A DNA stretch of 53,973 nt from Burkholderiales bacterium (lineage in GTDB: Bacteria > Pseudomonadota > Gammaproteobacteria > Burkholderiales > Burkholderiaceae_C): NCBI GenBank assembly GCA_947381415.1, contig CANCVB010000017.1:1-53973 (forward strand). Reading direction: 5' to 3'. Position numbers and translations under genes: made by a program. The notes beneath the pieces are model-generated. The model did not search any database and was not told where the DNA came from. It saw nothing but the letters and a program-made list of their open reading frames with translations. Shown here in pieces: positions 8,071 through 25,732 of the stretch; positions within the stretch are counted from its first letter, which is position 1, and the number at the start of each line of letters is the position of its first letter.

Positions 8071-8073
8071 TTC

Positions 8074-9982: not shown

Positions 9983-9985
9983 AAT
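9957..9985 (+). promoter_or_regulatory. Possible liuR promoter
   Basis: A TTCATA box (9957-9962), a 17-base spacer and CATAAT (9980-9985) would start transcription near 9992, inside the operator, and leave about 23 bases before the liuR ATG. That geometry fits autorepression by a bound dimer. It matches the consensus only in part and no ribosome-binding sequence follows, so it is tentative. Confidence 0.35.
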
Positions 9986-10007
9986 TGACGTTTACGTAAA
10001 CGTAAAC
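9985..10007. promoter_or_regulatory. LiuR-type operator, site 1
   Basis: This inverted repeat is centred on the ACGT at 9994-9997. The left arm TTGACGTTTAC (9985-9995) matches the reverse complement of the right arm GTAAACGTAAA (9996-10006) at 10 of 11 positions. It fills the gap between the divergent MBL gene and the MerR-family gene. A copy with 20 of 23 identical positions lies at 25929-25951, ahead of the methylcrotonyl-CoA carboxylase genes, so the two form one regulon. Assignment to the adjacent LiuR-like regulator is inference from position and from the known style of LiuR sites. Confidence 0.82.
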
Positions 10008-10014
10008 AGTCAAC

Positions 10015-10440
10015 ATGGCGACCCTCTACACCATCCGCGAATTGGCCAAAGAGTTTGATTTGACCACGCGTGCCATTCGATTTTATGAAGACATGGGCTT
10101 GTTGCGTCCTGAGCGCCAAGGTCCAGGCGGTCGCAATCGCATGTACAGCGCCCGTGAAAGAGCCCGGTTGCGACTGACTTTGCGTGCCAAGCGCTTAGGT
10201 TTGTCTTTGATGCAAGCCAAAGACATCATTGACATGTATGACAGTCCCCGTGACACTGCCCCTCAATTGGAAAAATTCATTGAGGTATTGGCCAGTCATC
10301 GACAACAATTGGAGTCACAGTTGGATGAAATTCAAGCCAACTTAGACGAAGTCAAGCAACACGAACGAGAAGCCAAAGCCTTGCTAAACAAGCACAACAC
10401 CAAAAGCAAGCGCAGTTCTACCATTGTCACTACTGATTGA
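10015..10440 (+). CDS. liuR: LiuR-like MerR-family regulator
   Basis: This 141-residue MerR-family regulator has an N-terminal winged helix-turn-helix (TIRELAKEFDLTTRAIRFYE, about 6-25, then DMGLLRPER), a second DNA-binding helix region and a long coiled coil (about 82-128) for dimerisation. The short C-terminus has no cysteine pattern, so it is not a metal sensor of the MerR/CueR type. The N-terminus resembles LiuR, which controls leucine/isovalerate degradation. The adjacent operator recurs before liuB. The effector is presumably an acyl-CoA intermediate, which is inference. It heads an apparent operon with can, aceK and a thiolase. The ATG at 10015 lacks an obvious Shine-Dalgarno sequence. 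Confidence 0.85.
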   Translation: MATLYTIRELAKEFDLTTRAIRFYEDMGLLRPERQGPGGRNRMYSARERARLRLTLRAKRLGLSLMQAKDIIDMYDSPRDTAPQLEKFIEVLASHRQQLESQLDEIQANLDEVKQHEREAKALLNKHNTKSKRSSTIVTTD

Positions 10441-10455
10441 TCGCCGCCATTGCTT

Positions 10456-11115
10456 ATGCCTGATGCTTTAAACACACTTTTCGCCAATAACCGAGACTGG
10501 GCAAGCCGCATGTCTTTGGAGCGTCCCGGTTTTTTCCAAAAATTGGCCAAGCAACAGTCCCCCAAATACCTGTGGATCGGTTGTTCAGACAGTCGCGTGC
10601 CGGCGAATGAGATTGTTGGACTCGATCCGGGTGAGGTGTTCGTGCATCGCAATGTGGCCAATGTGGTGGTCCCCTCTGATTTGAATGCTTTATCGGTGAT
10701 TCAATTTGCCGTTGAGCATTTGCGGGTCGAACACATCATGGTGGTGGGGCATTATGGTTGCGGTGGTGTGATTGCTGCAGCCAGAGGCACGCGCATTGGA
10801 TTGGTGGATAACTGGTTGCGTCATGTGCAAGATGTCCGCCTGCGCCATCGCCAACGCTTAAACCATTTGCCCCAGACAGAATTGGAAGATGTGTTGTGTG
10901 AAATGAATGTCCTAGAGCAGGTTGGCAATGTGGCTTTGTCCAACGTGATGCAAGATGCCTGGGCCAGAGGTCAAAACATTCAGGTACATGGCTTGATTTA
11001 TGGTTTAAGCGATGGCTTGCTCAAAGACTTGCATGTCAGTATGCGACATTCTGGCGAGGTGGTCGATGTGTTTCGCAATGCATTCAAGCGCTATCCACGT
11101 CAGTCAGCCAAGTGA
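10456..11115 (+). CDS. can: Beta-class carbonic anhydrase
   Basis: This is a 219-residue cytoplasmic zinc enzyme interconverting CO2 and bicarbonate. The zinc ligands of the beta class are visible: Cys43 and Asp45 in GCSDSR, then His99 and Cys102 in GHYGCGG. The start is the ATG at 10456, and a TTG two codons upstream is less likely. It lies 15 bases after liuR and overlaps aceK by 4 bases, so the three are probably one transcript. In this setting it could supply bicarbonate to the biotin-dependent carboxylase encoded at 25993-30762, which is inference. Confidence 0.95.
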
Positions 11116-12950
11116 ATACATTGCAAAAGACCATGTTCCCACAGCGCCTAGACTCTACGCTGGCCTACGACATCGCCAAAGCCATGATGGATGGGTTCAA
11201 TCGCCATTACGATTTGTTTCGAACAGAGTCCGCCAAGGCCAAGCATCGCTTTGAAACACAAGACTGGCATGGGCAACAGCGAGCCCAACGTGAGCGTATT
11301 GAGTTTTACGATTTGCGTGTGAAAGAGTGCTCTGGTCGACTAGAGACAGAATTCAAGGCGGGTGAGCAAGCCAGTGAGGTATGGCAACAAGTCAAACTGC
11401 ATTACATCGGCTTGTTGGTGGACCATTTCCAGCCCGAATTGGCAGAAACATTTTTTAACTCGGTCACCACCAAAATACTCGACCGGAGTTATTTTCAAAA
11501 TGACTTTATATTTGTGCGCCCTGCTGTCAGCACAGAGTACATAGAAAACTCGGAGCCAGACGCCAAGCCTACCTACAAAGCGTGGTACCCCAGTGAAGCC
11601 AATTTGCATGAAGTCATTGTGCGCATGATTCATGACTTTGACCTCAAACGCCCTTTTGAAAACCTCGAGCGCGACGCCCACGATATTTTGCGCAACGTGA
11701 AACAACGCTTAGGTCAAGCCAAGTTGCGGGCTAACTTTCAGGTGCAAGTGCTCTCTAGTTTGTTCTTTCGCAACAAGGGCGCGTATGTGGTGGGTAAAGT
11801 CATCAACGGTTTTCAAGAAATACCTTTTGCCTTACCCATACTGCACAACCACAGTGGCGAGTTGGTCATTGATGCAGCTTTGTTTGGCGAAGACGATTTG
11901 TTGATCTTGTTCAGCTTTGCACGCGCCTACTTCATGGTCGACATGGATGTACCTTCGGCCTATGTGCAGTTTCTGCGCAGCATGATGCCCCGCAAACCGC
12001 GTGCAGAAATTTACAACGCCTTGGGTTTGGCCAAGCAAGGTAAGACCTTGTTTTACCGCGATTTGCTCTATCACCAACGGCACAGTACCGACAAATTCCG
12101 TATCGCACCAGGCATCAAAGGCATGGTCATGTTGGTGTTTGATCAGCCTTCGTTTCCTTTTGTCTTCAAGGTCATCAAAGATTTTTACCCGCCCCAAAAA
12201 GACACTTCGCGTGAGCAAATTCAAGGCAAGTATTTGCTCGTGAAGCAACACGATCGCGTGGGGCGTATGGCTGACACTTTAGAGTACAGCAATGTGGCTT
12301 TCCCCCGTGAGCGTTTTGAAGACGAGTTGATTGCCGAGATTCAAAAATTTGCGCCCAGTCAAATCGAGATCAACCGACGAGCCGATTCGGGTCAAGAAGA
12401 AGTGGTGATCAAACATGCGTATATCGAGCGCCGCATGATCCCCTTGAATATCTATTTGCAAGAAGCGTTCGACGCGGGCTTGGACGATGTGCGTGCCAAA
12501 AGCCAAATGGAGCGTGCGGTGGTGGAGTATGGCAATGCCATCAAGGATTTGGTGGCCGCCAATATTTTCCCGGGCGATATGCTGTGGAAAAACTTTGGCG
12601 TCACTCGCCACGGCAAGGTGGTGTTTTATGACTATGACGAAATTGAATACATCACCGATTGCAATTTCCGACGCGTTCCTGCACCTCGCAACGAGGAAGA
12701 TGAAATGTCGGGTGAAATTTGGTACCACGTTGGCCCTCACGATGTTTTCCCTGAAACCTTTGGCCCATTTTTGCTAGGTAACCCTGCTGTGCGAGAGGTG
12801 TTCATGCGGCACCATGCCGATTTGCTGGAGGCCAGTTTTTGGCAAGGACACAAAGAGAAGATCCATCAAGGCCATGTGCATGACGTGTTTCCCTACGAGG
12901 CCGATAAACGATTTCAAATTCAACGCGCCGCTTTAGGCTTATCACTTTAG
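11112..12950 (+). CDS. aceK: Isocitrate dehydrogenase kinase/phosphatase
   Basis: AceK phosphorylates and dephosphorylates isocitrate dehydrogenase, setting the split between the TCA cycle and the glyoxylate bypass. The 612-residue length is close to the family norm. The nucleotide-binding motif APGIKGMVM begins at residue 332, and the kinase-like segment [26 protein letters not shown] lies near 487-512. The GTG at 11112 overlaps the can stop (GTGA). An ATG at 11133 is the alternative start. The substrate gene icd and the bypass genes aceA and aceB are not in the window. Its place in a LiuR-headed operon links acetyl-CoA-yielding catabolism to the bypass. Confidence 0.96.
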
Positions 12951-12969
12951 TTTTTTTCAGGAGCTTTTC

Positions 12970-14151
12970 ATGTCAGATCCCATCGTTATCGTCAGTGCCG
13001 CCCGTACACCTATGGGCAGTTTTCAGGGAGATTTCTCCGCTTTGTCCGCCCATGATTTAGGTGGTGCTGCCATCAAGGCAGCGGTGCAGCGTGCGGGGAT
13101 TTCGCCTGAAGCTGTGACCGAAGTCCTGTTTGGCAATTGTTTGATGGCCGGCCAAGGCCAAGCGCCTGCCCGTCAAGCGGCCTTCAAAGGCGGATTGCCC
13201 AAAAGCGCAGGCGCAGTGACCTTGTCCAAGATGTGTGGTTCTGGCATGCGCGCAGCCATGTTTGCCCATGACATCCTGAGCGCTGGCAGCCAAGAGGTAA
13301 TCATCGCTGGCGGCATGGAGAGCATGACCAACGCGCCTTACCTTATCCTCAAAGGACGTGGCGGTTACCGCATGGGCCACGACAAGATTTACGACCACAT
13401 GATGCTCGACGGCCTGGAAGACGCCTACGAGGCGGGTCGCTCTATGGGTACCTTTGGCGAAGACTGTGCGGCCAAATACCATTTCACCCGAGAAGCGCAA
13501 GACCAATTTGCCATGGCCAGTGTGGAGCGTGCCAAAGCCGCCACGGCGTCGGGTGCATTTGCCAAAGAGATCATCCCTGTGACCGTCAAAGACCGTTCGG
13601 GTGAGCGTGTGATCAGCATTGACGAGGGCCCAGGCAAAGTCAAACTGGACAAAGTCACCAGTCTTAAACCCGCGTTCAAAAAAGATGGCACCATCACTGC
13701 CGCGTCCAGTTCCTCTATCAATGACGGTGCTGCTGCGCTGGTCATGATGCGCGAAAGCACGGCCAAGAAATTGGGTTGCACACCTTTGGCCCGCATCGCT
13801 GGGCATGCCACTTTTGCACAAGAGCCCGAGTGGTTCACCACCGCGCCAGTGGGTGCCACGCAGCAAGCCTTAGCGCGCGCTGGCTGGCAGGTGGGCGATG
13901 TGGACTTGTGGGAGGTCAATGAAGCGTTTGCCGTGGTGCCCATGGCACTGATGCACGAGCTCAAAGTGCCCCACGAGATTGTCAATATCAACGGTGGCGC
14001 CTGTGCCTTGGGTCACCCCATTGGCGCGTCGGGTGCACGCATCATCGTCACTTTGATTCATGCCTTGCAAGCCAAAGGCTTGAAAAAAGGCTTGGCCACC
14101 TTGTGCATTGGCGGTGGCGAAGGCACGGCCATGGCCCTCGAATTGGTCTGA
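12970..14151 (+). CDS. Acetyl-CoA acetyltransferase (thiolase)
   Basis: This 393-residue thiolase condenses or cleaves acetoacetyl-CoA. All catalytic residues sit at the canonical positions: Cys89 (KMCGSGM), His349 (GHPIGASG) and Cys379 (CIGGGEG). An AGGAG ribosome-binding sequence lies just before the ATG, 19 bases after aceK. Thiolase is the last step of leucine breakdown after HMG-CoA lyase, which fits the LiuR-headed operon. A biosynthetic role, for example in polyhydroxybutyrate synthesis (phaA), cannot be excluded from sequence alone. Confidence 0.93.
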   Translation: MSDPIVIVSAARTPMGSFQGDFSALSAHDLGGAAIKAAVQRAGISPEAVTEVLFGNCLMAGQGQAPARQAAFKGGLPKSAGAVTLSKMCGSGMRAAMFAHDILSAGSQEVIIAGGMESMTNAPYLILKGRGGYRMGHDKIYDHMMLDGLEDAYEAGRSMGTFGEDCAAKYHFTREAQDQFAMASVERAKAATASGAFAKEIIPVTVKDRSGERVISIDEGPGKVKLDKVTSLKPAFKKDGTITAASSSSINDGAAALVMMRESTAKKLGCTPLARIAGHATFAQEPEWFTTAPVGATQQALARAGWQVGDVDLWEVNEAFAVVPMALMHELKVPHEIVNINGGACALGHPIGASGARIIVTLIHALQAKGLKKGLATLCIGGGEGTAMALELV

Positions 14152-14205: not shown

Positions 14206-16161
14206 TCAGTTCAGCATCAATGATCGACCATCGTACAAATGGGCCTGCATGGGCACCACATAACGGTGTGACTGGGTCAACATCAAGATCAACCCTGGTG
14301 TTCGGTTGAAACGAATGGCGTTTTCACAACCTTGAAACGCCACCTGCATTTCACACAAACAGTCCACTTCCTTTTGGCTGGACAAATGGCCAATGAAAAA
14401 ATTCTCGGTTTGTGCCAGCAAGTCGGGGTTGATGGTGCTAGGGGACTGTGTGGCATAGGCAATACCGATGTGAAACTTGGCCCCCTCCTTGGCAAATCGT
14501 GCGTACACATTGGTCATCAAGGTGTCTTGCATGGGAAAGATGGTGTGTGCCTCTTCAAAGTAAATTTGCACATAACGACCCTTCAACGCATTTTGATTGA
14601 ATTTGTGCTCTTGCTCGGCAAAAATGGCCAAGCACAGTTTTTGCGCAAAGAACTGAACCACACGTTCGACGGCATTGCTCAAGTCAATGATGACGGTACG
14701 GCCTTGGTTCAAGGAGTTCAAAATTTGATGGATGAAGTCTTCTGCGATGGGACTGTGATAGGGCAAGCAAGAGCGCAGCTGTGAAGGGCCTTGGGAATTG
14801 TTGCCACCTTCTTCGCCACACAAGAAGTTCATCAATATCACCTCCTCGCTGTCAAACAAGGGTCGGCCTTGCACCATCAAATTGGGGTCGTTGGCATAGA
14901 TTTGTCGAAAGCGCGCGACCGTGTTGATTTCATACAGCAAGGCAGGCATGGTGCTGGGCACTGCCGCCGCCGGGGTGTTGTGAATGGCCTGGTAAGCGGC
15001 TTGGCGTAAATTGGCAGAAAAACTGGGGTTGAAAGGTGCGGCAAAGCCCAAGTCCATCAACCAAACTTTGGTGCGCTCGGCGTCATAAGGGAAACCAGCG
15101 GCGTCCAGCACCGCCCAGAACAACATCACCTTGCGCAATTGCTTGTGCTTGCTGGTCTCAGTGTCATGTTCACCGAACAGCATGTCGGACAAGCGGCAGG
15201 TCAAAAAACTGCGCACCATGGGCAATTCCACCACCTGGGGTGGCAGCAGTTCCTGCATCACTTCCAGGGCTTGTGTGGGTGTTTGGTAAAAATTAAACCG
15301 CAGCAAGTGCCCGTCTTTGTTGCCCTGACGTGCAGTTAGAAAATACGACTTGCAACGCTCTTTGTTGTGAGAGGCCAGTGTGATTTCCCCATGGCTGGGG
15401 TTGGTATTGGAGTATTCACCGCTGACATCAAACAGCAATTGGCCGACGTTTTGTGTTTGTTGGGTGTAGTCCAACAAGCCTTGGGCAATCAATTTCACAA
15501 TATTGGATTTCCCCAGCCGGGTTTTGCCAAGCATCGCCGAGCGTTTGCCCACCATGTCATACATGCCTATGCGTGTGGAAATGGCGTGCTTACGCCAATC
15601 AATTTGTTCGTTGTAGCGGAGCATGCCGAATTCCAACAAACCGTAGGGACGCAGGGTGCCATTGACCAAACCCTGCAATACAAGAGGGGAAGGTGCGCAG
15701 GCTTTGAACGCGTGAGCGTCCATGTTCAAACTGATTTGGCTGGTGAATCCCCAAGGGGCTTGCTCGTCTTGAACGTCTTTGTTGAAGCTGCCCAAGATGG
15801 CGCACCGCAAAAGGTTTTCAGTGCCTTGTCCGCCAGGTATTGGTAGCAACTCCCAGTCTTCCACCCGCAAGATCAGCAGTTTGCTGTGGTCCAGCAAGGG
15901 GGTTCGTGCCAGTCCATGCGGTGGGTGTTCCATCGCTTGTGGCAGCATCACCAGAAATTCGCTTTGCGACACAGGGTGTTGTGCCAAGGCGTGGGAATCT
16001 ATACGCAGCCAAGCTTGTCGAAACTGCAGCCGAATGCAATACCCCAGCGGCAGGAGTTGGCTCAAATCTTCAGGTGAAAAATGCAAACCTTGTCTGGTGG
16101 GGGTTGCGGTTGGTGGATTCAAATGAGGGGTTTCTGTCGAGGTGTTCATGGTCGCTTTCAT
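14206..16161 (-). CDS. HerA/DUF87-type ATPase of the pilus operon
   Basis: This 651-residue protein is a P-loop ATPase of the HerA/FtsK (DUF87) class. The Walker A segment GKTRLGKSN begins at residue 212. The DUF87-like strand QLLFDVSGEYS follows, and a Walker B with two acidic residues lies at 536-537 (YFEEAH). A later segment, IAYATQSPSTI, resembles the sensor region of hexameric translocases. About 200 N-terminal residues form a separate domain that I do not recognise. No membrane segment is evident. The ATG at 16161 overlaps the stop of the upstream minor pilin gene (ATGA), so it is co-translated with the pilus genes. An ATG at 16173 is possible. HerA-like motors usually move DNA or proteins. 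The role here is unknown. Confidence 0.82.
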   Translation of the reverse strand: MKATMNTSTETPHLNPPTATPTRQGLHFSPEDLSQLLPLGYCIRLQFRQAWLRIDSHALAQHPVSQSEFLVMLPQAMEHPPHGLARTPLLDHSKLLILRVEDWELLPIPGGQGTENLLRCAILGSFNKDVQDEQAPWGFTSQISLNMDAHAFKACAPSPLVLQGLVNGTLRPYGLLEFGMLRYNEQIDWRKHAISTRIGMYDMVGKRSAMLGKTRLGKSNIVKLIAQGLLDYTQQTQNVGQLLFDVSGEYSNTNPSHGEITLASHNKERCKSYFLTARQGNKDGHLLRFNFYQTPTQALEVMQELLPPQVVELPMVRSFLTCRLSDMLFGEHDTETSKHKQLRKVMLFWAVLDAAGFPYDAERTKVWLMDLGFAAPFNPSFSANLRQAAYQAIHNTPAAAVPSTMPALLYEINTVARFRQIYANDPNLMVQGRPLFDSEEVILMNFLCGEEGGNNSQGPSQLRSCLPYHSPIAEDFIHQILNSLNQGRTVIIDLSNAVERVVQFFAQKLCLAIFAEQEHKFNQNALKGRYVQIYFEEAHTIFPMQDTLMTNVYARFAKEGAKFHIGIAYATQSPSTINPDLLAQTENFFIGHLSSQKEVDCLCEMQVAFQGCENAIRFNRTPGLILMLTQSHRYVVPMQAHLYDGRSLMLN

Positions 16162-17003
16162 TGCGCGCTGCATTGAATGGCTGCAGAGTTTTGAATGGCC
16201 AAAATGCCTGGAATACCCTTGTTGGCTGCATTGACAATCGGATTGGCTAAAAAAGTTTGCTTGCCCACGCTGAACAAATTGCCGGAGGTGTCCACCGTGC
16301 TTTCAAGAGACATCAGGCCGTCGCTGCCAATTTCCGACAACGCAGTACTTAACTTTTCATCACGCGTCATCTTGAAACTGCCAGCGGTACTTCTAGAAAA
16401 CGGCTGCGAGTTAAAAACCAAGCTTTTGAAAGTTGGCGTTAGACATATCGTTTCATCAACCACCTGAACGTTGTTACACCAGCGTTGAATATTGACAAAA
16501 TAAGTGCTGGGAGCCACACCGCCCGCTCTATTTCGGACAGTTTTATCGGTACTGAATAAAAACCGATCTGCAAAGTTGGCGTCCAACATGCCCAAGGCTT
16601 TGAGGTTTTGCAAAGTTGGCTGGTAAGCATTCGCTGGTGCTGCCGGCCCCGAGACAACCGAAGTGGCGAAAGCACATGGCAAACTCGTTCCAGAGGCTGT
16701 AGCACCATCTTTCAATGGAACAGTGGAACACTGGCCACGTATGCCGCTCAATCCATCGTAATAACGAAGCATGTACCGGCCTACTGCATCATTGACTGTC
16801 ATGTAATAGCCGGCTTGTGCTTTGGATAAATTCGTTTGCGTGTCGTTGGTTTGAATATAAAGATAAGACACAGCGACGATGCCTGCCAAGACCATGGTCA
16901 AGGCAATTTCCAGCATCGTGAAGCCCCGTTGGTCGCGGCGTGAATCGAGGCATCCAAGGGAGGCATGAGGCAAATAAGAATTCTGAAGGTGGCTGGCGCG
17001 CAT
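16158..17003 (-). CDS. Minor type IVb pilin, paralogue B
   Basis: This 281-residue prepilin-like protein has a 27-residue leader ending RDQRG, then FTMLE with Glu at +5, then a hydrophobic helix (EIALTMVLAGIVAVSYLYI). The long leader is typical of type IVb pilins. The C-terminal domain is clearly paralogous to the protein encoded just upstream: both share VNDAV..YM..YY, I.GQCS, PANA.QPTL, IQRWCN, SLVFN.QPF and a terminal GILAIQN. Several cysteines are conserved, including one next to the C-terminus, suggesting disulfides. It could be a PilV-like tip pilin or adhesin subunit. The gene starts 9 bases after its paralogue and overlaps the HerA-type ATPase. Confidence 0.8.
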   Translation of the reverse strand: MRASHLQNSYLPHASLGCLDSRRDQRGFTMLEIALTMVLAGIVAVSYLYIQTNDTQTNLSKAQAGYYMTVNDAVGRYMLRYYDGLSGIRGQCSTVPLKDGATASGTSLPCAFATSVVSGPAAPANAYQPTLQNLKALGMLDANFADRFLFSTDKTVRNRAGGVAPSTYFVNIQRWCNNVQVVDETICLTPTFKSLVFNSQPFSRSTAGSFKMTRDEKLSTALSEIGSDGLMSLESTVDTSGNLFSVGKQTFLANPIVNAANKGIPGILAIQNSAAIQCSAQ

Positions 17004-17012
17004 ATGAATAGC

Positions 17013-17813
17013 TCACAAATTAAGGCAAGTGACGTCAGACGTATTTTGAATAGCCAATATGCCTGAAACGCCACTGGCGTTGAAACTGGATATAGGACTG
17101 CTGGTAGCTGTTCCGGTTAGTGTGAAGAGATTAAGGTCGTTGTTGGTGCCCGGACTTGCATAGCCATTGCTGCCCATGGCCGTCAAAGCAGCTCTCATGA
17201 ATTCAAATCTAGACATCGACAAATAGCTACCACCCCCAGTCATGACAAATGGTTGTGTATTGAAAACCAAGCTGCGCAACTGAGTCGCAACGGCTCCGCA
17301 GGTCGTTGCATCGGTCATTTGGATGCTGTTACACCAGCGCTGTATACGCACACCATAGGTGCCAGCAGGCTTTACACCTGACGCATTGACAGCCACAAGA
17401 TCTGTAGGAAACAACAAACGGTTATTGAAATTCCTGTCAAGCAAAGACAGGTTTTGCAATTCAATCAAAGTGGGTTGCAGTGCATTCGCTGGAGAGCTGG
17501 GGGCTCCCCCGATGAATTGGCAGTTGGTGCTGGGTGTCATCGGAGGGGGTGTTGCGCCAGTCATCAGCAAAACCCTAGAGCACTGTCCAGGAATGTCTTT
17601 CAAACTGACGTAATAGTTGATCATGTATTTCGATACAGCATCATTGACTGACTTGTAAAAGCCTGCCTGAGTAACAGCGATGCTGTATTGGTTCTCAGAG
17701 ACTTGGTTCTTCAAATACCCGATAGACAAGGTCAAGGCCAAACCCATGAACAGTGATACTTCCAGCAAGGTATAGCCCCGTTGCGTGGAATGAAAGCTGT
17801 GGGTGCGGTTCAT
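17013..17813 (-). CDS. Minor type IVb pilin, paralogue A
   Basis: This is a 266-residue prepilin-like protein. The leader MNRTHSFHSTQRG is followed by YTLLE and a hydrophobic helix (VSLFMGLALTLSIGYL). The ATG at 17813 overlaps the pilR stop as ATGA. The longer frame to 17909 runs inside pilR and is rejected. The C-terminal region is paralogous to the next gene, with the shared motifs GQCS, PANALQPTL, RIQRWCN, SLVFNTQPF and GVSGILAIQN. By position after pilQR it may fill the PilV role, but its length and sequence do not prove this. Confidence 0.8.
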   Translation of the reverse strand: MNRTHSFHSTQRGYTLLEVSLFMGLALTLSIGYLKNQVSENQYSIAVTQAGFYKSVNDAVSKYMINYYVSLKDIPGQCSRVLLMTGATPPPMTPSTNCQFIGGAPSSPANALQPTLIELQNLSLLDRNFNNRLLFPTDLVAVNASGVKPAGTYGVRIQRWCNSIQMTDATTCGAVATQLRSLVFNTQPFVMTGGGSYLSMSRFEFMRAALTAMGSNGYASPGTNNDLNLFTLTGTATSSPISSFNASGVSGILAIQNTSDVTCLNL

Positions 17814-18898
17814 TTGGATAACATTTGGGTAGGGTTGCGCAAACCTGCTTGCAAGGACATGGTGGTCGACAAAAAGCCCAGCATCATGGCGGCCAACATC
17901 ACACCGCAAACCACCATCAAGACCGAGTTCAACTGTTTGGCACGCTTGTCGATGCGCACAATCATGCGGTCGATGGAGCCAGTACCGATATAAATGAAAG
18001 CCTCAATCGGGTTGCTGCGCTCGGAAGCGTCTTGGATCCGGTCTTCCATCTCTTGGTCAAACATGCCTGTGGAAAAGGCTTTGCCAAAGGTGCCGTTGCT
18101 GGGCTTGGCCAGGTTGATGAGGATTTGGCGGATATGCCATTTGCTCCAGGTAGAACTGTTTTTGTAGCTTCGCTCCAATGAAGAGCGCAACGAAATGCCC
18201 GAACGCATCAGCGAGGCCAGCGAAATCATCAGCATGGAACTGGCGTAATCGCGGTACAAATTCATGGGCAGCCATTGGTCAAAGCGTTTGCGAATGCGAC
18301 CAGTCCAGCGCGGCAGGCTGTAGAAAAATGCGGCAAAGGCTGCCACCGCGAACACACCCAAATAAACGCCGTAATGGGTGATGAACTGCGAAACGATGTA
18401 CAAAGCCCTGCCCATGGGGGGCCACTGGGTAGGGGGGGAAATTTGCGTCAAGATGGGCACGGCGTTCAAAGAAAAGCCAGTGAGCAAGGATGCAAACATC
18501 AGCAGCAACATGATGGGGTAAATCACCGCTTTGCGCATGGTCGCCACCATGGCATCGGTTTTGATCACGGTTTCAGACAAGAACATCAGTCCATCGGCCA
18601 TGGTGTTGTCACCTGCCGCCTGGGTGGCGTCAATCATGGTGAGTTCCACGTCCGAGGCGATGCCTTTGAGCGCGTCCGACAAAGACCCGTTCTCCAGCCC
18701 TTTGAGCATGCTCATGTACATGGGTGCTGTCAGCGGTGTGCGTTGTCTGGCCCTGGATTCAAGTTTGCGCACCGTGGTGAACAGCGGTACCCGGTCCTTC
18801 AATGTGGAGGCCAGGTCGTAGTAAAAGTCGGCGCGACGCTGGTGCAACTCGCGTCTCGCCCACCACACCGGAATCGCCATCACCATGTCTTTCATCAT
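17810..18898 (-). CDS. pilR: PilR/GspF-type pilus platform protein
   Basis: This 362-residue inner-membrane protein has the GspF/PilR fold: two homologous helical domains separated and followed by membrane helices (AVIYPIMLLLMFASLLTGF, GVYLGVFAVAAFAAFFY, LMVVCGVMLAAMMLGFL). In R64-type systems PilR is the platform on which the PilQ ATPase acts to assemble pilin. The ATG overlaps the pilQ stop (ATGA), and the stop overlaps the start of the first minor pilin in the same way, so three genes are translationally linked. Confidence 0.85.
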   Translation of the reverse strand: MMKDMVMAIPVWWARRELHQRRADFYYDLASTLKDRVPLFTTVRKLESRARQRTPLTAPMYMSMLKGLENGSLSDALKGIASDVELTMIDATQAAGDNTMADGLMFLSETVIKTDAMVATMRKAVIYPIMLLLMFASLLTGFSLNAVPILTQISPPTQWPPMGRALYIVSQFITHYGVYLGVFAVAAFAAFFYSLPRWTGRIRKRFDQWLPMNLYRDYASSMLMISLASLMRSGISLRSSLERSYKNSSTWSKWHIRQILINLAKPSNGTFGKAFSTGMFDQEMEDRIQDASERSNPIEAFIYIGTGSIDRMIVRIDKRAKQLNSVLMVVCGVMLAAMMLGFLSTTMSLQAGLRNPTQMLSK

Positions 18899-20643
18899 GC
18901 AAGTCCTGGCGTAGTCAGTTGCCTGGTTCGGGCAATGATGGAGGGCGAGCCAAAGGTGCGCTCAAAGTGATAGGGGTCCAAACGACCTTGCGACATGTCA
19001 AACAAAGCGTGTCCCCAAGCTTCTTTGCCCAACATGTCCTCTTGGTCAAAACCCGATCGGCGCAAACTCAGCCAATGGTTGCGCGCGCCCAAGTCATTGC
19101 CTTGGTGTAGCAGGGTCAGTAAGGTGTTGTCCAAGGGAAGGACTTCTGCACATACCTTGACCCCGCGGACACCTGAATGCGCATTGGGCATGGCTTCCAG
19201 CCCTGCCACTTGGCAGTGTTCGCAGCCCGCATCGCTGGCACAGCGCATTTTGGCCACATCCAATTGAAAGTATTTTTCATACTCCACCAAGGTGGCTATG
19301 GGCAAAGCAGAAATTGCAGGTACCTGGCAATGCATACAATTGAGGGGGATGAGCACCTGATAGACCAACAAGGACAAAAACTCAGCACTGCACACATCCT
19401 CTCGCAGCAAGCCAATGTGCTGCGAGGTGAGCCTGGCCACGATGCCCAAAGCCGAGGTGGCATGCACCGTGGTCAGCAGTTTGTGGCCCGTTTGAATCGC
19501 TGCATGCGCCATCTGCCCTGACAGTCGTTCGCGGATTTCACCAAACATACCTACATCGGGGTCCATGCGCAAAAAAGCCATCATCGCCGCTTCAAACGGG
19601 TTGTGGGTACTGCCCTTGGCTTGGCGTTGAATGGAAAAGTGAGACACCCCCGGCACCTGGTATTCCACGGGGTCTTCTATCGAAATGATTTTGCGTTGGC
19701 CTTGCGCCGCCAGTTTTGACAGCAAGGCGGTGAGTGTGGTGGTTTTGCCGGAACCGGTGATGCCCGCAATAAAGACACCGCCCCAGGCCGATTGGGTGGC
19801 TTCGTGCAGTTGCTCAATTTGCCAAGGGGTGTAGCCCAGTTTTTCAATTTGAGGCATCTCCGCGTGGCTGGATTTGCCTGTGCGCAAAATGCGAATCGTT
19901 ACATCAAAGCCGCCCACGCTGGGATGGCTTTGGTAGCGCAGTTGCAATTTTTGCCCGCGCACCTCCAAGGGGATCATGGCCGACTGTGGCAAGCCTGCAT
20001 TGAAGGCCACTTCCGAGCTGGAGCCTTCTTGCGACAGCACGGTATAGCCTGCCGATATACCGCTGATGACCATGCGTGCAGGCAGTTGTTTGACCAGACG
20101 CATCAGACCATCTCGGCGCACGCGCAGTGCAGCCTGGTCGCCCCGAACCTCAAAGTGAATATCGCTGCTGCCCAGTTGCAAACAATGGGCAATCACACCA
20201 TTGAGCCAACCCAGTGGTGCTGAGTTTTGGATGATTTTGGACATGGTTTCACGTTCCATATCCAAGATTTTTTGGGCGCTGAGGGCGTCTTTGGCATTCA
20301 CATGCTCGTTAAGCAGTGTTTGCAAAATTTCAGGTGTGCAGGTGAATGCGCCTTCGAATTTCAGATTCAGACGCTTACCCTGTTCAATCAAATTGAACCA
20401 ACCCGTGCTGCGGTATTCACTGGCCAGACACATGATGATGAACCGCTGAGGCTCGACACCCAAGGCCACCATTTGGTTCAACTGGTTGCTGGCAATGCTT
20501 AAGACGGGCTTGGGGCCATGCGATAGCACGTTGCTGAAATTGGGAATTTGAAAGTAATCATCCACATGCATCCGTTTGACCGACTGGGGCTCACTGCCCA
20601 TTTGGGTCGTCGTGGTTGATGCGGGATTGGCTGCTGCTCTCAT
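18895..20643 (-). CDS. pilQ: PilQ/GspE-type pilus assembly ATPase
   Basis: This 582-residue secretion ATPase powers pilus extension. The Walker A GITGSGKTTT lies at residues 294-303, followed by the Walker B region KIISIEDPVEY, the Asp-box area MDPDVGMFGEIRE and the His-box HKLLTTVHATS. Two CxxC pairs near the C-terminus (CMHCQ, CEHCQ) match the zinc site found in many GspE proteins. The start is the ATG at 20643 (MRAAANPAS), two bases after the pilP stop. The open frame continues to 20955 but only through pilP in another frame. By operon position and by pairing with PilR it is called PilQ in R64 nomenclature, not the PilQ secretin of type IVa pili. Confidence 0.88.
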   Translation of the reverse strand: MRAAANPASTTTTQMGSEPQSVKRMHVDDYFQIPNFSNVLSHGPKPVLSIASNQLNQMVALGVEPQRFIIMCLASEYRSTGWFNLIEQGKRLNLKFEGAFTCTPEILQTLLNEHVNAKDALSAQKILDMERETMSKIIQNSAPLGWLNGVIAHCLQLGSSDIHFEVRGDQAALRVRRDGLMRLVKQLPARMVISGISAGYTVLSQEGSSSEVAFNAGLPQSAMIPLEVRGQKLQLRYQSHPSVGGFDVTIRILRTGKSSHAEMPQIEKLGYTPWQIEQLHEATQSAWGGVFIAGITGSGKTTTLTALLSKLAAQGQRKIISIEDPVEYQVPGVSHFSIQRQAKGSTHNPFEAAMMAFLRMDPDVGMFGEIRERLSGQMAHAAIQTGHKLLTTVHATSALGIVARLTSQHIGLLREDVCSAEFLSLLVYQVLIPLNCMHCQVPAISALPIATLVEYEKYFQLDVAKMRCASDAGCEHCQVAGLEAMPNAHSGVRGVKVCAEVLPLDNTLLTLLHQGNDLGARNHWLSLRRSGFDQEDMLGKEAWGHALFDMSQGRLDPYHFERTFGSPSIIARTRQLTTPGLA

Positions 20644-20645
20644 GG

Positions 20646-21293
20646 CTATTTCCCGGCCTGTCCTGGATTGCCAGTGGTCGATCGGAGCAGGTCGACGGGT
20701 GAGCTGAAGTTGGCGTTTTGAGACAAGACATTGGGCGGCATGATGGCACCCAGGTTTTGTGCCGAGTTGCTTGCCAGATTGCCAGGCCTTGGTAACCCCA
20801 AGCCAGATAGGTTGGTGTTGCCAGCGGTGGGGATGTCGTAAGCGTAACGGTCCAGAGTCATGCCTGCGGCAGGTGGGCGCAGGTACAGGCTGATTTTTTT
20901 GTTTTTGGCCATCACCAGTTGCAAACCATTGTTGCCATAACGCTCTATCACCCAAGGACCAACGGTGCGATCACCTTCGTGCAAGCGCAAGACATGCACT
21001 TGTTGGTTGTAAATCACCTCGGCCACCAGTTGGTGGTTCACGCCTGTCAGCGACCACAGCACAGGGTTGTTTGGATTGCTCATCGCGTCGACATTGGCGT
21101 TGAGGTTGGCAGGTGTTTGAGACATGCCAGAAGGGGCCATCATGCGCAAACTGCTCACGTGCTGCTGCTTGGCAGACACGATCAAGTCGCCCAAAGTCAT
21201 GGGTTGTTGCGGTGTTTTTTCAGCATGTACGCCCACCTGCCATAGCAATCCCAGCGATAGAACAATATGCCCATGTTTAATCGGGATGAACAT
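20646..21293 (-). CDS. pilP: PilP-like type IVb pilus protein
   Basis: This 215-residue periplasmic protein has an N-terminal signal peptide ending near VHA-EKTPQ. The body includes NPNNPVLWSLTGVN and VHVLRLHEGDRTVGPWVIERYG, typical of PilP in R64-like clusters, and it has a Gln/Asn-rich tail. In such systems it is thought to link the inner-membrane platform to the secretin. It overlaps the pilO stop by 17 bases and is followed directly by the ATPase gene, the standard O-P-Q order. Confidence 0.78.
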   Translation of the reverse strand: MFIPIKHGHIVLSLGLLWQVGVHAEKTPQQPMTLGDLIVSAKQQHVSSLRMMAPSGMSQTPANLNANVDAMSNPNNPVLWSLTGVNHQLVAEVIYNQQVHVLRLHEGDRTVGPWVIERYGNNGLQLVMAKNKKISLYLRPPAAGMTLDRYAYDIPTAGNTNLSGLGLPRPGNLASNSAQNLGAIMPPNVLSQNANFSSPVDLLRSTTGNPGQAGK

Positions 21294-22536
21294 AGTAGTC
21301 TCCAGTCAACTGATAGGTGCTGCCCAAATTGCTTTGCATTTGGGTCACAGTGGCAAAGGGGGGAATTTGTAAACTGCTGGCCAGACCCAGCGGTATCTCG
21401 GCCGACCAAGTGCCTTTGAACAAAGGTTGCTTGATCACTGCGGCGTCTAAGTTGTTGGTCCACAGTTGTGCTTTTTCGGCATTCACATTGCGCGCACCAA
21501 TCAGGCTCAAGTCTTGTAACCAGGTGGACACGTGGCGAAACCCCACGGCGTTTGCTGGCAAGTCAGACAGTGTCTTGAAGCCTTGGTCAGTCAGCTCTAC
21601 GCGGGCTTCGTGCAGGGTTTCTAAGCGGTGTTTGAGCACGTCTTTGTCAGCGGGCAGGTGCTGTGTGCTTTGGCTTCCTGGGGGCAAGTGGTCATAGAAG
21701 TCGTCCACACTGCCATACAGGCGACGCCAGCCAGCGGTGCACTGGTTGCCTTTGCAATCAAACTGGTTCAATACCCAGCCTTGGTTGGACATTGGCATGG
21801 TTTGGGCAATTTGTAACCACTGCGCATACAAGGACTGGCCCTGCAGGTGAATGGTTTTGATGCTTTGCAGCACCTGCTGGTTGTAGCCGGGGTTGGGGTC
21901 TGAGGGCGAAGGAGCAGCCATTTGACTGAGCATGTTCTCGCGTTCTTGCAGTTGCCAGTAGTAAAAACCACCGCCTGCACTAAACAACAGCACCACCACG
22001 CCCAACACACTGATCAAGGCTTTTAAACTGGGCAGCCGTTTCAGCTTGGAATCGTTGTTGGGTTGGTCAAAGACGGTGTGTGCATTGAGTTGCTCTTCGT
22101 TGGCCAAAATGCCCAGGTCGCCCACGTGGCGAATTGGCTGGTCCTGGTGAATGGCCTCAAACTCTTGCACCAAGGCTTCGGCCTCGGTCAATGTGCCTAT
22201 GAAGTCAAACCCCGGCACGGGGCGGCGCTCGTTCAGACCAATCACGGCCACCTGTTGGTTGCCCATGCCAAAGGCGAACAATTCCAAACCGCCATTGCTC
22301 CATTCCGTGGCCAGGTGCAAGGCGGCGGAGTACATGGGCTGTTTAGATTGGGGAATCGCGCTGCAGACGCCAATAAAGTCTTGCAAACCGCTAGAGGCAT
22401 ACCAGTACATGCCTTGTCGCTGAATCGCGGTCAGTGTGGATCTGGCCAGTTTTTGGTCTGGGGTCAATAAGCGCCACTCCATGCCCAATACAAAGCGGTA
22501 CTGTTCAAATTTGACCCACAAAGCGCTCTGGTTCAT
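21277..22536 (-). CDS. pilO: PilO2-like type IVb pilus protein
   Basis: This 419-residue bitopic inner-membrane protein has a cytoplasmic N-terminal domain (about 1-165), one membrane helix (172-193, VLGVVVLLFSAGGGFYYW) and a periplasmic domain. The N-terminal block around FIGVCSAIPQSKQPMYSAAL and the conserved FDCKGNQCTAGWRR segment are features of the type 4b pilus PilO2 family. It lies between secretin and pilP, as in plasmid R64. There is no separate PilM gene; the N-terminal domain may serve that function, which is inference. Confidence 0.82.
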   Translation of the reverse strand: MNQSALWVKFEQYRFVLGMEWRLLTPDQKLARSTLTAIQRQGMYWYASSGLQDFIGVCSAIPQSKQPMYSAALHLATEWSNGGLELFAFGMGNQQVAVIGLNERRPVPGFDFIGTLTEAEALVQEFEAIHQDQPIRHVGDLGILANEEQLNAHTVFDQPNNDSKLKRLPSLKALISVLGVVVLLFSAGGGFYYWQLQERENMLSQMAAPSPSDPNPGYNQQVLQSIKTIHLQGQSLYAQWLQIAQTMPMSNQGWVLNQFDCKGNQCTAGWRRLYGSVDDFYDHLPPGSQSTQHLPADKDVLKHRLETLHEARVELTDQGFKTLSDLPANAVGFRHVSTWLQDLSLIGARNVNAEKAQLWTNNLDAAVIKQPLFKGTWSAEIPLGLASSLQIPPFATVTQMQSNLGSTYQLTGDYYVHPD

Positions 22537-22540
22537 GGCA

Positions 22541-24181
22541 TCACAAATCCAACAAACGGGGGGTGATCAATACCAAGGTGGTGGTGCGACTTTTGGAGCC
22601 GCTGCGGGAACCTGGCAATTTTTGGATCAGTGGATCGACCTGTTGGTTATTTAACAACTCGGCATCAAAGCCACTGAGCACAATGGTTTCGTTGGACTTG
22701 GCCACCAAGCGTTGCATCACGCCGAAGTTGTCGATGCTGGGTTGTTGAACGGTTTGCAAATTGGCACCGGTACCTGAATTGAATGCCGTTAGCGAGGTGA
22801 GCGAACTCAGGGACAGGCCGCACTCCACCAGTACATTGTTGGAGTCCAACAAAATGGGCAGCAAGGTGATGGTGAAGCCCGTGGTGATCTCGCCCGGGGT
22901 CAGTGTCGACAAGCCATACGAGGTCGATCCATTGGTTGAGGTCAAGACCGTGGGTGTGACGGATTTCAAATAGCTTTGCGTGGTTTGCTTGCCCACAGGC
23001 ACCGGTTGTCTGTTGAGTGTGGTGACCACGGTGGAGTAAGCCGAACTGACCCGACCAAATTTCTCCAAGGCCTGAATCACCAACTGGTTGCTGCGCCCAG
23101 CGCTGTTGGTCACCACAAAACCAATGCTGGCGGCTGCGGTCGAACTGCTCACAGGTGTAGGGCCTTTGATTTGCAAATTGCCGGCCACAATGTTCCAGTC
23201 AATTCCAGACTGAAACTCCTTGTTCAAATTCACCTGTAGCACCTCGACCGTCATAGAGACCTGACGCAACAAGGTTTGGTTCAACACCTGAAGATAGGCT
23301 TCGATCGCTTCGACATTGCGGTAGGCATCTCTGACAGTCACCGTGCCTGTGTTGGGGTCGGTGGAAATTTTGCCGCTGACCGACACCATGTTGGCCAGGT
23401 TTTTCTCTATGCCTGTCCAGATGTTGATGTCGCTGGCCGTGCTGGAGCTGGAGGTGCCTCCACCGGTAGAGGTCAAGCTCAGGCTAGAGGCCAACTTCAA
23501 GCCACCAGGCAAGGTGTTGATGGTGATGCTGCGTGACACCATGCGGTAAAACTGGATGCGACCGGCGTCGTACGACCAGCGCAAATCCGAGCGCAAAGCC
23601 ACTTGGTTGAGCAAGCCTGCCAAGCTGCCCGAGTAATTGAGCTCGATGTCGTTTTGCATGTTGGCGTCGCTGTTGAAATTCAAGCGACTGCCACCCGCAC
23701 GTTGCACACTGTCCAAAATAGATTTGTCACTGGGAGGCGCACCTGGCGTGTTGGCGGCTGGGGCCGCCGCCGTTGGTGCCACCTGCGCCATGCCTATAGG
23801 TACAAACATCGAAGAGGGCATCATCGCGTCGGCGCTCACATGCACCGGTATATCGATGGCACGCTCGATGATGGCGGCAATGGTTTTGATGTTGTGCTGC
23901 CCCGGAATGCGCAAAGTCACCGAAGCAATATGGTTGGGCAGCATTTCACTGCGGTCCAGCGGAATGGAGTGTTTGGTAAAGCGAGGTGCTTGGCTGTTGA
24001 CCACGGTCGAGGTCGGCCCCGGGTAGGCGCGCAACAGGCTGTTGGCTTTTTCAGCCCGTGTACCAATGTCATTTTGGTCATGGGCTATCGAGCGCTCAAA
24101 CACAGAGGTTGCACAGGCTTGCAACAACAGAGCGACGAAAAAGCTGCAAAACGTGGACATCAGGCGAGGGGTGTTTTTCAT
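22541..24181 (-). CDS. pilN: PilN-type outer-membrane secretin lipoprotein
   Basis: This 546-residue lipoprotein secretin forms the outer-membrane pore for the pilus. The signal peptide ends in a lipobox (LLLQAC), with Cys about 23 residues from the chosen start at 24181. The ATG at 24199 would place six extra residues ahead of a good signal peptide. An STN-like region (about 170-215, NDIELNYSGSLAGLLNQV) precedes the secretin core, which includes VSMTVEVLQVNLNKEFQSG, VPVGKQTTQSYLKSVTPT and the terminal TTTLVLITPRLL. Low-complexity Ser/Thr-rich linkers separate the domains. The stop is 4 bases from pilO. Confidence 0.9.
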   Translation of the reverse strand: MKNTPRLMSTFCSFFVALLLQACATSVFERSIAHDQNDIGTRAEKANSLLRAYPGPTSTVVNSQAPRFTKHSIPLDRSEMLPNHIASVTLRIPGQHNIKTIAAIIERAIDIPVHVSADAMMPSSMFVPIGMAQVAPTAAAPAANTPGAPPSDKSILDSVQRAGGSRLNFNSDANMQNDIELNYSGSLAGLLNQVALRSDLRWSYDAGRIQFYRMVSRSITINTLPGGLKLASSLSLTSTGGGTSSSSTASDINIWTGIEKNLANMVSVSGKISTDPNTGTVTVRDAYRNVEAIEAYLQVLNQTLLRQVSMTVEVLQVNLNKEFQSGIDWNIVAGNLQIKGPTPVSSSTAAASIGFVVTNSAGRSNQLVIQALEKFGRVSSAYSTVVTTLNRQPVPVGKQTTQSYLKSVTPTVLTSTNGSTSYGLSTLTPGEITTGFTITLLPILLDSNNVLVECGLSLSSLTSLTAFNSGTGANLQTVQQPSIDNFGVMQRLVAKSNETIVLSGFDAELLNNQQVDPLIQKLPGSRSGSKSRTTTLVLITPRLLDL

Positions 24182-24188
24182 GGCAGAT

Positions 24189-25109
24189 TTACCTGGCATA
24201 GGGGTCTTGGTGGCGGATGATGCTGATGACTCGGGTGTTGTCGTTCATGACGGCTTGCAAGGGGTAGTCGGTGCTGGCCAAGGCATTCATCACCAACTGA
24301 ATTGCCGAGGTGAAATTGCCCTCAATGCTGATTTGCGCCTGGATGGGGAAGTCGCGATCTGCATCCCAAATCAGTTGCCAATTCGCCGCTTGGGACCAGC
24401 GACTCAGGCAGTGGTAAAGCGTTTTGTCCTGGGTCAAAAGGGTCCAAGTGGCGCTGGGTTCGTCCATCGGTGCCAAGCGCGCTTGGCTCAGGCCACCATT
24501 GGGGTTGGGGAGATTGGGTTTGGGGGTCTTGGCCCATTCCACGCCAATTTCAAATTCGTCGTTTAGGGCTTGGCCTGCCGTGGCTTTTTGGTTGCGTTCA
24601 CTGACCTGGTCTTGCCGAGACTTCACACCCTGAGACGCCGCGTCGCTGGCCACTGGCGAGGCCTGTGCCCCTTGTGGTGAGATGGTGTAGATGCCTTGCG
24701 ACAAGCTCATGCCGAGTTTTTGGTTTTTCAAGGCTTGGCTGAACAGGTCCCAAGCCACCGCAGGCGACACGGCCTGCGTACTTTGCAGGGTCATGCGACC
24801 CTCGACCCGCGTGTCCACCAAGACCTGACGGCCGGTCATGTGGCCAATGCTGCGCGCCACGGTGGCAATGTCGACATTGACAAACTGCAACCACACGTTA
24901 CCCGCCGCATCGCTGGCAGGTGCATTGGGTGAGGCGGGCAGGTTGGCGACATTGATATTGGGCACCGACCACCCCATGGGGGTGGCGCGGGCTTCAGACG
25001 TTGCAGGCGGGGAAGACGCCACACCCATGCGAGGCTCTGCATGCACCGCCGCTTGGCCAACCAGGGCGGCGAGCCACAGCCAGCGGCGCCAAGAAGAATG
25101 AACGCGCAT
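24189..25109 (-). CDS. PilL-like protein: N0-like plus TcpQ-like domains
   Basis: This 306-residue periplasmic protein starts with a signal peptide (RRWLWLAALVGQAAVHA). Residues about 72-145 (VNVDIATVARSIGHMTGRQV, then VDTRVEGRMTLQS) look like a secretin N0 domain of the GspD type. Residues about 213-306 (TLYHCLSRWSQAANWQLIWD, then VISIIRHQDPY) look like the TcpQ/PilL C-terminal domain. In type IVb systems TcpQ-like proteins help the secretin reach or stay in the outer membrane. It lies between major pilin and secretin, 11 bases after the pilin stop. The start at 25109 is chosen for the signal peptide. The longer frame overlaps the pilin gene. The N0 assignment is from pattern only. Confidence 0.75.
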   Translation of the reverse strand: MRVHSSWRRWLWLAALVGQAAVHAEPRMGVASSPPATSEARATPMGWSVPNINVANLPASPNAPASDAAGNVWLQFVNVDIATVARSIGHMTGRQVLVDTRVEGRMTLQSTQAVSPAVAWDLFSQALKNQKLGMSLSQGIYTISPQGAQASPVASDAASQGVKSRQDQVSERNQKATAGQALNDEFEIGVEWAKTPKPNLPNPNGGLSQARLAPMDEPSATWTLLTQDKTLYHCLSRWSQAANWQLIWDADRDFPIQAQISIEGNFTSAIQLVMNALASTDYPLQAVMNDNTRVISIIRHQDPYAR

Positions 25110-25120
25110 GGGTGTCAGGC

Positions 25121-25732
25121 TCAAGGTTTGAGGGCGATCACAAAGTCGCTTGAAGTGTTGGCTGTACAGGCGGTTGCCAAGGTTGCAGGGACCACTGCGG
25201 TGGTGTCCTGGGCTTTGACAAGGTTGGTTGTAGGCCAAGTCGTTACCGCAGCTGGAGTAGCAAGTGGCGTTTGAACGGAAATAGCAAAAACCAAGGCACT
25301 GAGTCCATTGGCCAGATCGGGACAAGCGGCGCTGGGGACACCAGAGATGGTGTAAATGAAACCAGAATTTTGAGCCAAGCTTCCAATGGCAGCAGGATTG
25401 GTCACAATGAATTCACCCGAATTGAACGACGATTTGATGGCCATCGTTGCACCTGTTCCAGTGATTTTGGAGGTTTCCCACCCACCCAAGTTCGCCACGG
25501 TTGCCAAAGTAATACCTGAGGTGCTGCTAGCACTGAAGTTTGAACTGAGTTTGGCACCCAACTTGGCTGCAACCTTGATTTGGTCATTGACCTTGCCTGA
25601 GGTCAGAATGCCTTGGACACCGCTCAAGCCGGCGACGATGAGCACGGCCAGGATGGCTACGGCGATGGCCAGTTCGACCAAGGTGTAGCCACCTTGTTTT
25701 TTGTTTTTGGGGTTGATGACAGTTTGTTGCAT
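25121..25732 (-). CDS. pilS: Type IVb major pilin
   Basis: This 203-residue prepilin heads the operon. A short hydrophilic leader ends KKQGG, and YTLVE with Glu at +5 starts the mature protein, followed by the hydrophobic helix IAVAILAVLIVAGL. A Cys near position 138 and another near 189 could form the C-terminal disulfide loop seen in pilins. An AAGGAGC ribosome-binding sequence ends four bases before the ATG, the strongest in the operon, as expected for the main structural subunit. Called PilS by analogy to R64. No prepilin peptidase is encoded nearby, so the housekeeping PilD presumably processes it. Confidence 0.88.
   Translation of the reverse strand: MQQTVINPKNKKQGGYTLVELAIAVAILAVLIVAGLSGVQGILTSGKVNDQIKVAAKLGAKLSSNFSASSTSGITLATVANLGGWETSKITGTGATMAIKSSFNSGEFIVTNPAAIGSLAQNSGFIYTISGVPSAACPDLANGLSALVFAISVQTPLATPAAVTTWPTTNLVKAQDTTAVVPATLATACTANTSSDFVIALKP

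Follow-up and report, generated by a model that had tools for sequence, protein, structure and literature searches.

A HerA-type ATPase gene in R64-like type IVb pilus operons of betaproteobacteria

HerA-type motors in DNA exchange and defence

In Thermus thermophilus, the hexameric HerA-FtsK-type ATPase TdtA, which has no recognised anchor, is encoded in an operon that also holds a NurA-like nuclease and a methylase, and it is required for the donation of DNA in transjugation but not for its uptake (consulted part of PMC5365140). In Sulfolobales, CedB and CedD are needed for the import of DNA together with Ups pili (parts of PMC11868833 and PMC9905601), and HerA-type motors have also been captured by defence systems, including DndH and others (parts of PMC10853773 and PMC12839542). 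Here, we describe a gene for a HerA/DUF87 ATPase at positions 14206..16161, on the minus strand, of a 53,973-nt stretch of DNA (the window) from a Burkholderiales bacterium (GenBank assembly GCA_947381415.1, contig CANCVB010000017.1). The gene stands in an operon for an R64-like type IVb pilus, and comparison across genomes indicates that its product is very probably a partner dedicated to this pilus and descended from a module in which HerA lies between a methylase and a nuclease-like gene.

Each described system resembles this locus in part. TdtA differs from the pilus HerA in that it belongs to an integrative element, has kept its nuclease and lies outside a pilus operon. The Ced/Ups system likewise pairs HerA/VirB4-type ATPases with type IV pili for the exchange of DNA, but it is archaeal, uses the membrane channel proteins CedA/CedA1 and has its ATPase genes outside the pilus operon; with the CedD profile, the window HerA reaches 26.6 bits against a cut-off of 600. 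In defence capture, a HerA-type motor has likewise moved into a new multi-gene system, where it joins nucleases, while here it joins a pilus operon. The TdpAB proteins (PDB 8wet, 8wfd) are 20-22% identical to the window HerA, and TdpA acts together with TdpB, for which no gene was recognised in the pilus operons. R64-like type IVb pili share with the window operon a TcpQ/N0 protein, a PilN-type secretin, T2SSE and T2SSF proteins and prepilins, and plasmid relatives of PilN are at most 34% identical among the matches listed (15 of 2882 records). The HerAs of the three-gene module are nearest to the pilus HerA both by sequence (about 35-42% identity among the best 80 of 188 relatives) and in the tree, and share its length and motor residues. 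This module nevertheless differs from the pilus side of the family, with a methylase before HerA, a nuclease-like gene after it, a conserved barrel and a distribution over many phyla. The literature searched, which did not cover most subscription journals, yielded no description of a type IV pilus operon that contains HerA. What we regard as new is the pairing and its traceable origin, the fold and the pilus type being already known.

The pilus-linked HerA and its genomic association

The forward reading of 14206-16161 is broken by stops and the gene is read from the minus strand, with 651 residues counted from the ATG at 16161 (655 if the in-frame ATG at 16173 is used). The protein matches Pfam DUF87 with 44 bits (cut-off 23.2), and its single-chain predicted model (pLDDT 89.7) matches full-length HerA proteins in structure comparison, with a RecA-like translocase core. 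These results uphold the initial annotation, which had recognised a HerA/DUF87-type P-loop motor from the sequence alone and had correctly placed its motor residues, though it gave no strand. The RecA-like core carries the Walker A motif GKTRLGKS at residues 212-219, a helical insert spans residues about 301-470, and the YFEEAH motif with the acidic pair E536-E537 lies at residues 534-539. Walker A residues and acidic pair are invariant in a 46-row alignment with L216 as the sole exception; this alignment combines the window protein with 45 proteins out of the 98 others that reach E <= 1.1e-90, and 98 of 136 matched database proteins, the window protein counted in, fall at E < 1e-90. Residues 1-21 are disordered. 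The N-terminal 200 residues had been thought to match no recognised family; the predicted model has a HerA fold with an N-terminal barrel (residues about 34-200) and, because it matches full-length HerA proteins, this region is by predicted structure a fast-diverging HerA barrel.

The curated HerA equivalog cut-off is not reached by the window protein (best NCBIfam HerA model 47.2 bits against 800), and none of the PADLOC HerA models scores it above 54.2 bits. Identity as a coupling protein (VirD4/TraD) or as VirB4, a comparison that the initial annotation had suggested, was rejected: no profile of these in Pfam or NCBIfam matched at E <= 0.1, and no N-terminal membrane anchor of the VirD4/TraD type was found by hydropathy, the maximum over 19 residues being 1.26 in the window HerA and 0.98-1.66 in 23 pilus rows. 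The protein may form a cytoplasmic hexameric ring.

Relatives were scanned in one genome per species across 84,980 species, and the best 80 of the 188 found were kept. Twenty-four of these make up the pilus side (L027-L044, L071, L073, L077, L079, L081 and L085). Pilus genes adjoin HerA in 20 of the 24, and in the remaining four (L034, L073, L079 and L085) the contig ends where the pilus genes would lie. On the opposite flank of HerA, L085 has a gene for a prepilin peptidase. Wherever both sides of the junction are visible on the pilus side of the family, HerA thus belongs to the pilus operon, as had been supposed for the window. Because near relatives are many and the gene order recurs in 20 of 24 loci, the adjacency goes beyond chance, and a chance neighbourhood was rejected on synteny together with co-occurrence.

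Co-occurrence was scored with profiles of PilO, the marker of this pilus type, and of the pilus-side HerA, on the best 4 or 5 candidates per genome; these genome samples overlap with the species-wide locus scan (for example, L033 and G006, and L040 and G011). Among 299 genomes of the family, PilO matched in 13, strongly in four (>500 bits: G000, G011, G082 and G277) and below 80 bits in nine, and HerA matched in 27, strongly (>900 bits) in the same four and below 165 bits in the rest. PilO matched in 11 and HerA in 25 of 300 genomes of the order, both being strong in G000 and G506 (at least 449.9 bits; next best 60.4 and 135.8). Each time, the strong PilO and HerA matches share one contig and lie within about 8 kb, and neither a strong PilO alone nor a strong HerA alone occurs among the 299 family and 300 order genomes. 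The co-occurrence that the initial annotation had proposed as a check is seen in 4 of 299 and 2 of 300 genomes, respectively.

Among 61 relatives, 37 of them of the genus, both genes are present in G000, G006, G011, G024 and G035. PilO appears without HerA in G007, G014 and G036 (genomes 69, 84 and 58% complete), where the contigs (9.5, 4.3 and 6.1 kb) break off within the operon, short of the place of HerA, and therefore speak neither for nor against the link. HerA without PilO takes the form of two pieces at contig ends in G002 (57% complete) and of pieces at a contig end in G019 (81% complete). In G034 (L197; 95% complete), which also has no PilO, a HerA of the pilus kind at about 9700-11230 is broken by stops, and no pilus gene lies in the 20 kb opened of its 40.7-kb contig; this is perhaps the relic of a lost block. 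Three of the weaker R64-like pili were opened (G295, G172 and G089) and have no HerA in the stretch seen, the contig of G172 ending at PilR. The link between HerA and this pilus is specific.

The pilus and HerA genes come and go as a unit. G006 has an empty site in which the flanking thiolase and carboxylase genes are 14 bp apart (L222, 6401 and 6416), and the same two genes are 11.8 kb apart in the window (14151 and 25993); the pilus and HerA block that G006 itself possesses is on another contig. Ten genomes have a thiolase match, and seven besides the window's own were opened (G015 and G034 were left out); the six relatives other than G006 have other genes between the two flanks or no carboxylase match, and none has HerA there. 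A plasmid-borne element was rejected, as a tblastn search with HerA matched only 5 of 72,556 plasmid records, at best with 27% identity over 80% of the query. As a separate observation, L027 is titled a Bordetella parapertussis metagenome-assembled genome, a doubtful label given that aceK, thiolase and the genes around them share 92-95% identity with those of the window.

One way to account for this block is that HerA entered beside the operon once and has been inherited ever since, with no role in the pilus, because the block moves together; the block does lie at different chromosomal places, and linkage alone could be inherited. However, the link survives rearrangement, with HerA first in 3 (Herbaspirillum), before a minor pilin in 2 (L031 and L036) and last of the recognised genes in 15 of the 20 loci. 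Moreover, no strong HerA stands apart from this pilus in the two genome samples, the motor is under strong constraint, and G034, the only near-complete genome with HerA but without PilO, has a decayed HerA. A mere passenger is thus very improbable.

Origin of the motor and divergence of the barrel

The other 56 of the best 80 loci have no pilus operon and carry HerA inside a three-gene set (L045-L070, L072, L074-L076, L078, L080, L082-L084 and L086-L106; about 9000-13300 in full-length loci). Neighbour clustering, run on 57 loci of which one is L085 of the pilus side, places one protein cluster directly upstream of HerA in 54 of the 56 (L063 is cut and L084 lacks it) and another immediately downstream in 54 (all but the truncated L094 and L100). 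The upstream protein was identified in two examples, both of them Dam-type methylases (MethyltransfD12, 157.8 and 183.2 bits; TIGR00571). The downstream protein has no PADLOC or NCBIfam match in two examples tested and no informative Pfam match in four, and it probably has a zinc ribbon; its predicted model (pLDDT 74.4, eight sequences) matches TdpAB chain G, which we take to be TdpB, with E 6.8e-10, and then NurA. Three more distant HerAs (G300, G267 and G515) also have a NurA-like neighbour. The methylase-HerA-NurA/TdpB-like set looks like an undescribed restriction-like system, and we know of no name for it. In L083, T2SSF- and T2SSE-like genes occur on the opposite strand at a distance of about 7 kb; they were taken as a separate locus and not as a pilus link. 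Membership in an ordinary family found independently of pili, which the initial annotation had held out as a contrary outcome, does not apply to HerA's own clade, although the neighbouring clade is indeed independent of pili.

In a tree of 94 rows, built by a quick method and with long-branch warnings for L085, L204, L205 and the Herbaspirillum rows, the 25 pilus rows form a single clade (support 100) that is joined with the 56 methylase rows (support 98), and the split between the two sides is still supported at 100 when the outgroups are removed. Pilus-side records are all betaproteobacterial where named by title, and the methylase side spans many phyla. No methylase or nuclease was recognised in the pilus operons, by Pfam and in related loci, a nuclease elsewhere in the genome not having been sought. 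The simplest history suggested by these sequences would be that HerA was recruited into the pilus a single time and that its methylase and nuclease partners were lost.

Given that its relatives are accompanied by a methylase and a nuclease-like gene, HerA could also be a guard at the base of the pilus, intercepting the DNA of pilus-binding phages or foreign DNA that enters via the pilus. Many solved HerAs are anti-phage, and capture of HerA/FtsK motors in defence is known (part of PMC10853773). In the pilus operons, however, neither the nuclease nor the methylase of the three-gene set was recognised, the nuclease-docking barrel is no longer conserved and the PADLOC scores are as low as given above, all of which renders a guard improbable.

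The two sides of the family differ in the barrel and hardly at all in the motor. Averaged over 23 pilus and 54 methylase rows (without L063, L079, L085 and L100, which are incomplete or long-branched), identity within the pilus and methylase sides is 78% and 78% at residues 201-255 and 69% and 71% at residues 471-600. In the barrel, identity is 26% on the pilus side versus 68% on the methylase side at residues 34-140, and 32% versus 57% at residues 141-200. When pairs of like motor identity are compared, in five bins that run from 60 to 85%, barrel identity (34-200) averages 20-36% on the pilus side versus 56-77% on the methylase side with no overlap, although the pairs are not independent and the last bin holds 3 pilus pairs. 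The only columns fixed differently between the sides (L079 and L085 left out) are 39, 533 and 541, all hydrophobic, and every row of either side has a basic residue at the insert positions of R343 and K344. Residues of the insert contact DNA in a solved HerA (part of PMC11291478), and by analogy R343 and K344 may do so in the window HerA. The barrel domain holds NurA in T. kodakarensis (part of PMC12977600); since the motor is unchanged and the barrel has diverged, it appears that the pump was retained and that the part which docks the nuclease was either released or refitted. Over 18 operons, barrel distances track those of six pilus proteins alike when the motor is controlled for (partial r 0.67-0.76; PilS, absent in L044, was left out), and therefore no particular pilus partner is named.

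The unchanged motor also favours DNA over pilin as the load. The steps that the initial annotation had envisaged for HerA, namely passage of DNA via the pilus pore and the retraction or delivery of a tip component, are hypothetical. An alternative possibility is that HerA has become a motor of the pilus machine itself, serving in the extraction of pilin or of a tip adhesin, in retraction or in delivery, with DNA no longer its load. In type IV secretion, VirB4 powers the biogenesis of a pilus. A changed load should nonetheless alter the residues of the channel, whereas only the three hydrophobic columns differ and the two basic residues stay; furthermore, no strong HerA occurs in the nine family genomes whose R64-like pili are weakly related (PilO below 80 bits). 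On balance, we regard a pilus motor as rather unlikely.

The pilus operon and the proposed role of HerA

The pilus genes of the window are all on the minus strand, and their names from PilL to PilS are our assumption from position and the gene order of R64. The first gene, at 25121..25732, encodes a pilin (PilS position; N_methyl 31.5 bits) and is followed by the TcpQ/N0 protein at 24189..25325 (PilL position, open reading frame limits; TcpQ 78 bits, GspD N0 51.7 bits) and the PilN-type secretin at 22541..24199 (Secretin 30.4 bits), which does not reach the PilN equivalog cut-off (TIGR02520, 237.9 against 287.65 bits). The PilO-position protein at 21277..22536 has no Pfam match and the PilP-position protein at 20646..21293 no Pfam or NCBIfam match, and both occupy the same place in related operons. 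Next come a GspE/PilB-type assembly ATPase at 18895..20955 (PilQ position, open reading frame limits; T2SSE 205.9 bits) and the T2SSF inner-membrane platform protein at 17810..18898 (PilR position; 34.2 bits). Of two minor pilins, the one at 17013..17909 (open reading frame limits, the true start probably lying inside) has no Pfam match but matches the profile of its neighbouring minor pilin at 16158..17003 (N_methyl 23.4 bits). The minus strand reads CAATGAAAG where the latter meets HerA, so that the HerA start codon ATG overlaps the minor pilin's stop codon TGA as ATGA, just as the initial annotation had it. The presence of TcpQ, secretin, T2SSE, T2SSF and prepilins together in one operon identifies the pilus as R64-like type IVb.

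The R64 operon also carries a prepilin peptidase and a lytic transglycosylase. Neither was found in the window operon among its open reading frames and Pfam matches, and a lytic transglycosylase gene is present in L032 and L035. The genome of the window (40 contigs, 2.51 Mb; T2SSE exceeds the cut-off in five genes) encodes two A24 prepilin peptidases elsewhere, as well as ComEC outside the pilus operon; therefore, pilins could be processed in trans and import could end in the standard channel.

Several further features of these loci may be recorded. Two genes before HerA, L032 encodes a long collagen-like Gly-repeat protein (6801-9098; Collagen 24.4 bits, below the cut-off) that matches the minor-pilin profile and is perhaps a tip adhesin, and a large frame upstream of HerA in L034 (3-1478) has collagen-like Gly repeats when read by eye. 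In Methylobacillus glycogenes (L031, 2585-8394), PilN and PilQ are each split into several frames next to an intact HerA, through decay or sequencing errors. By far the longest open frame of the window, of 1910 residues, lies at 36493-42225 on the plus strand.

A mechanism can be proposed on this basis. A HerA pump from a methylase-HerA-nuclease module would have been recruited once, in betaproteobacteria, into an R64-like type IVb operon, after which its methylase and nuclease partners would have been lost and the barrel would have come to face a component of the pilus or inner membrane in place of the nuclease. The HerA ring would dock by its barrel at the base of the pilus, on the cytoplasmic side, and ATP hydrolysis would move DNA towards the envelope or through it, either inwards or outwards, when the pilus mediates contact. 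Assembly of the pilus would remain the task of the GspE-type ATPase. The explanation as a whole, in which a restriction-type pump was recruited once and moves DNA, is in our estimation about evenly balanced, and so, with TdtA and the Ced/Ups systems as precedents, is DNA transfer as the function of the pilus HerA.

Several points weigh against this explanation. DNA transport, the hexamer and contact with a pilus protein are all inferred. HerA activity is not certain, because residues 561-562, at which we place the trans finger by our own mapping from parts of PMC11291478 and PMC12977600, read AK in the HerAs of both sides and RK in TdpA and the other four PDB rows aligned. The low identity of the barrel may be due in part to poor alignment of a fast-evolving domain. 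In the rooted tree, the methylase rows receive a support of only 80 as a group, and the pilus clade could therefore sit inside them. Finally, over 18 operons (L031 was excluded, PilN and PilQ being in pieces), the correlation of HerA distances with PilQ, PilO, PilN and PilR distances is r 0.88-0.91, which 0 of 2000 permutations equalled, but the four pilus proteins correlate among themselves at r 0.94-0.97; HerA thus tracks them slightly less than they track each other, and such values can arise from common descent alone.

Taken together, the sequences suggest a pilus machine that moves DNA. Somewhat more tentatively, the one operon may amount to a new bacterial DNA-transfer machine that combines an R64-like type IVb pilus and a DNA pump with a refitted barrel, and that would push or pull chromosomal DNA between cells in the absence of a relaxase, as a counterpart of the archaeal Ced/Ups system. 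The block is present in named isolates, Roseateles depolymerans DSM 11813 (L035) and Limnohabitans sp. B9-3 (L040), and the question is therefore directly testable. Should the pump indeed move DNA, bacteria of fresh water and soil would own a self-contained system of pilus-driven DNA exchange, the origin of which from restriction-like machinery can be read in its sequence. Even if it does not, a regular HerA motor would be a second kind of ATPase for type IV pili, which are known for motors of the GspE/PilT type.
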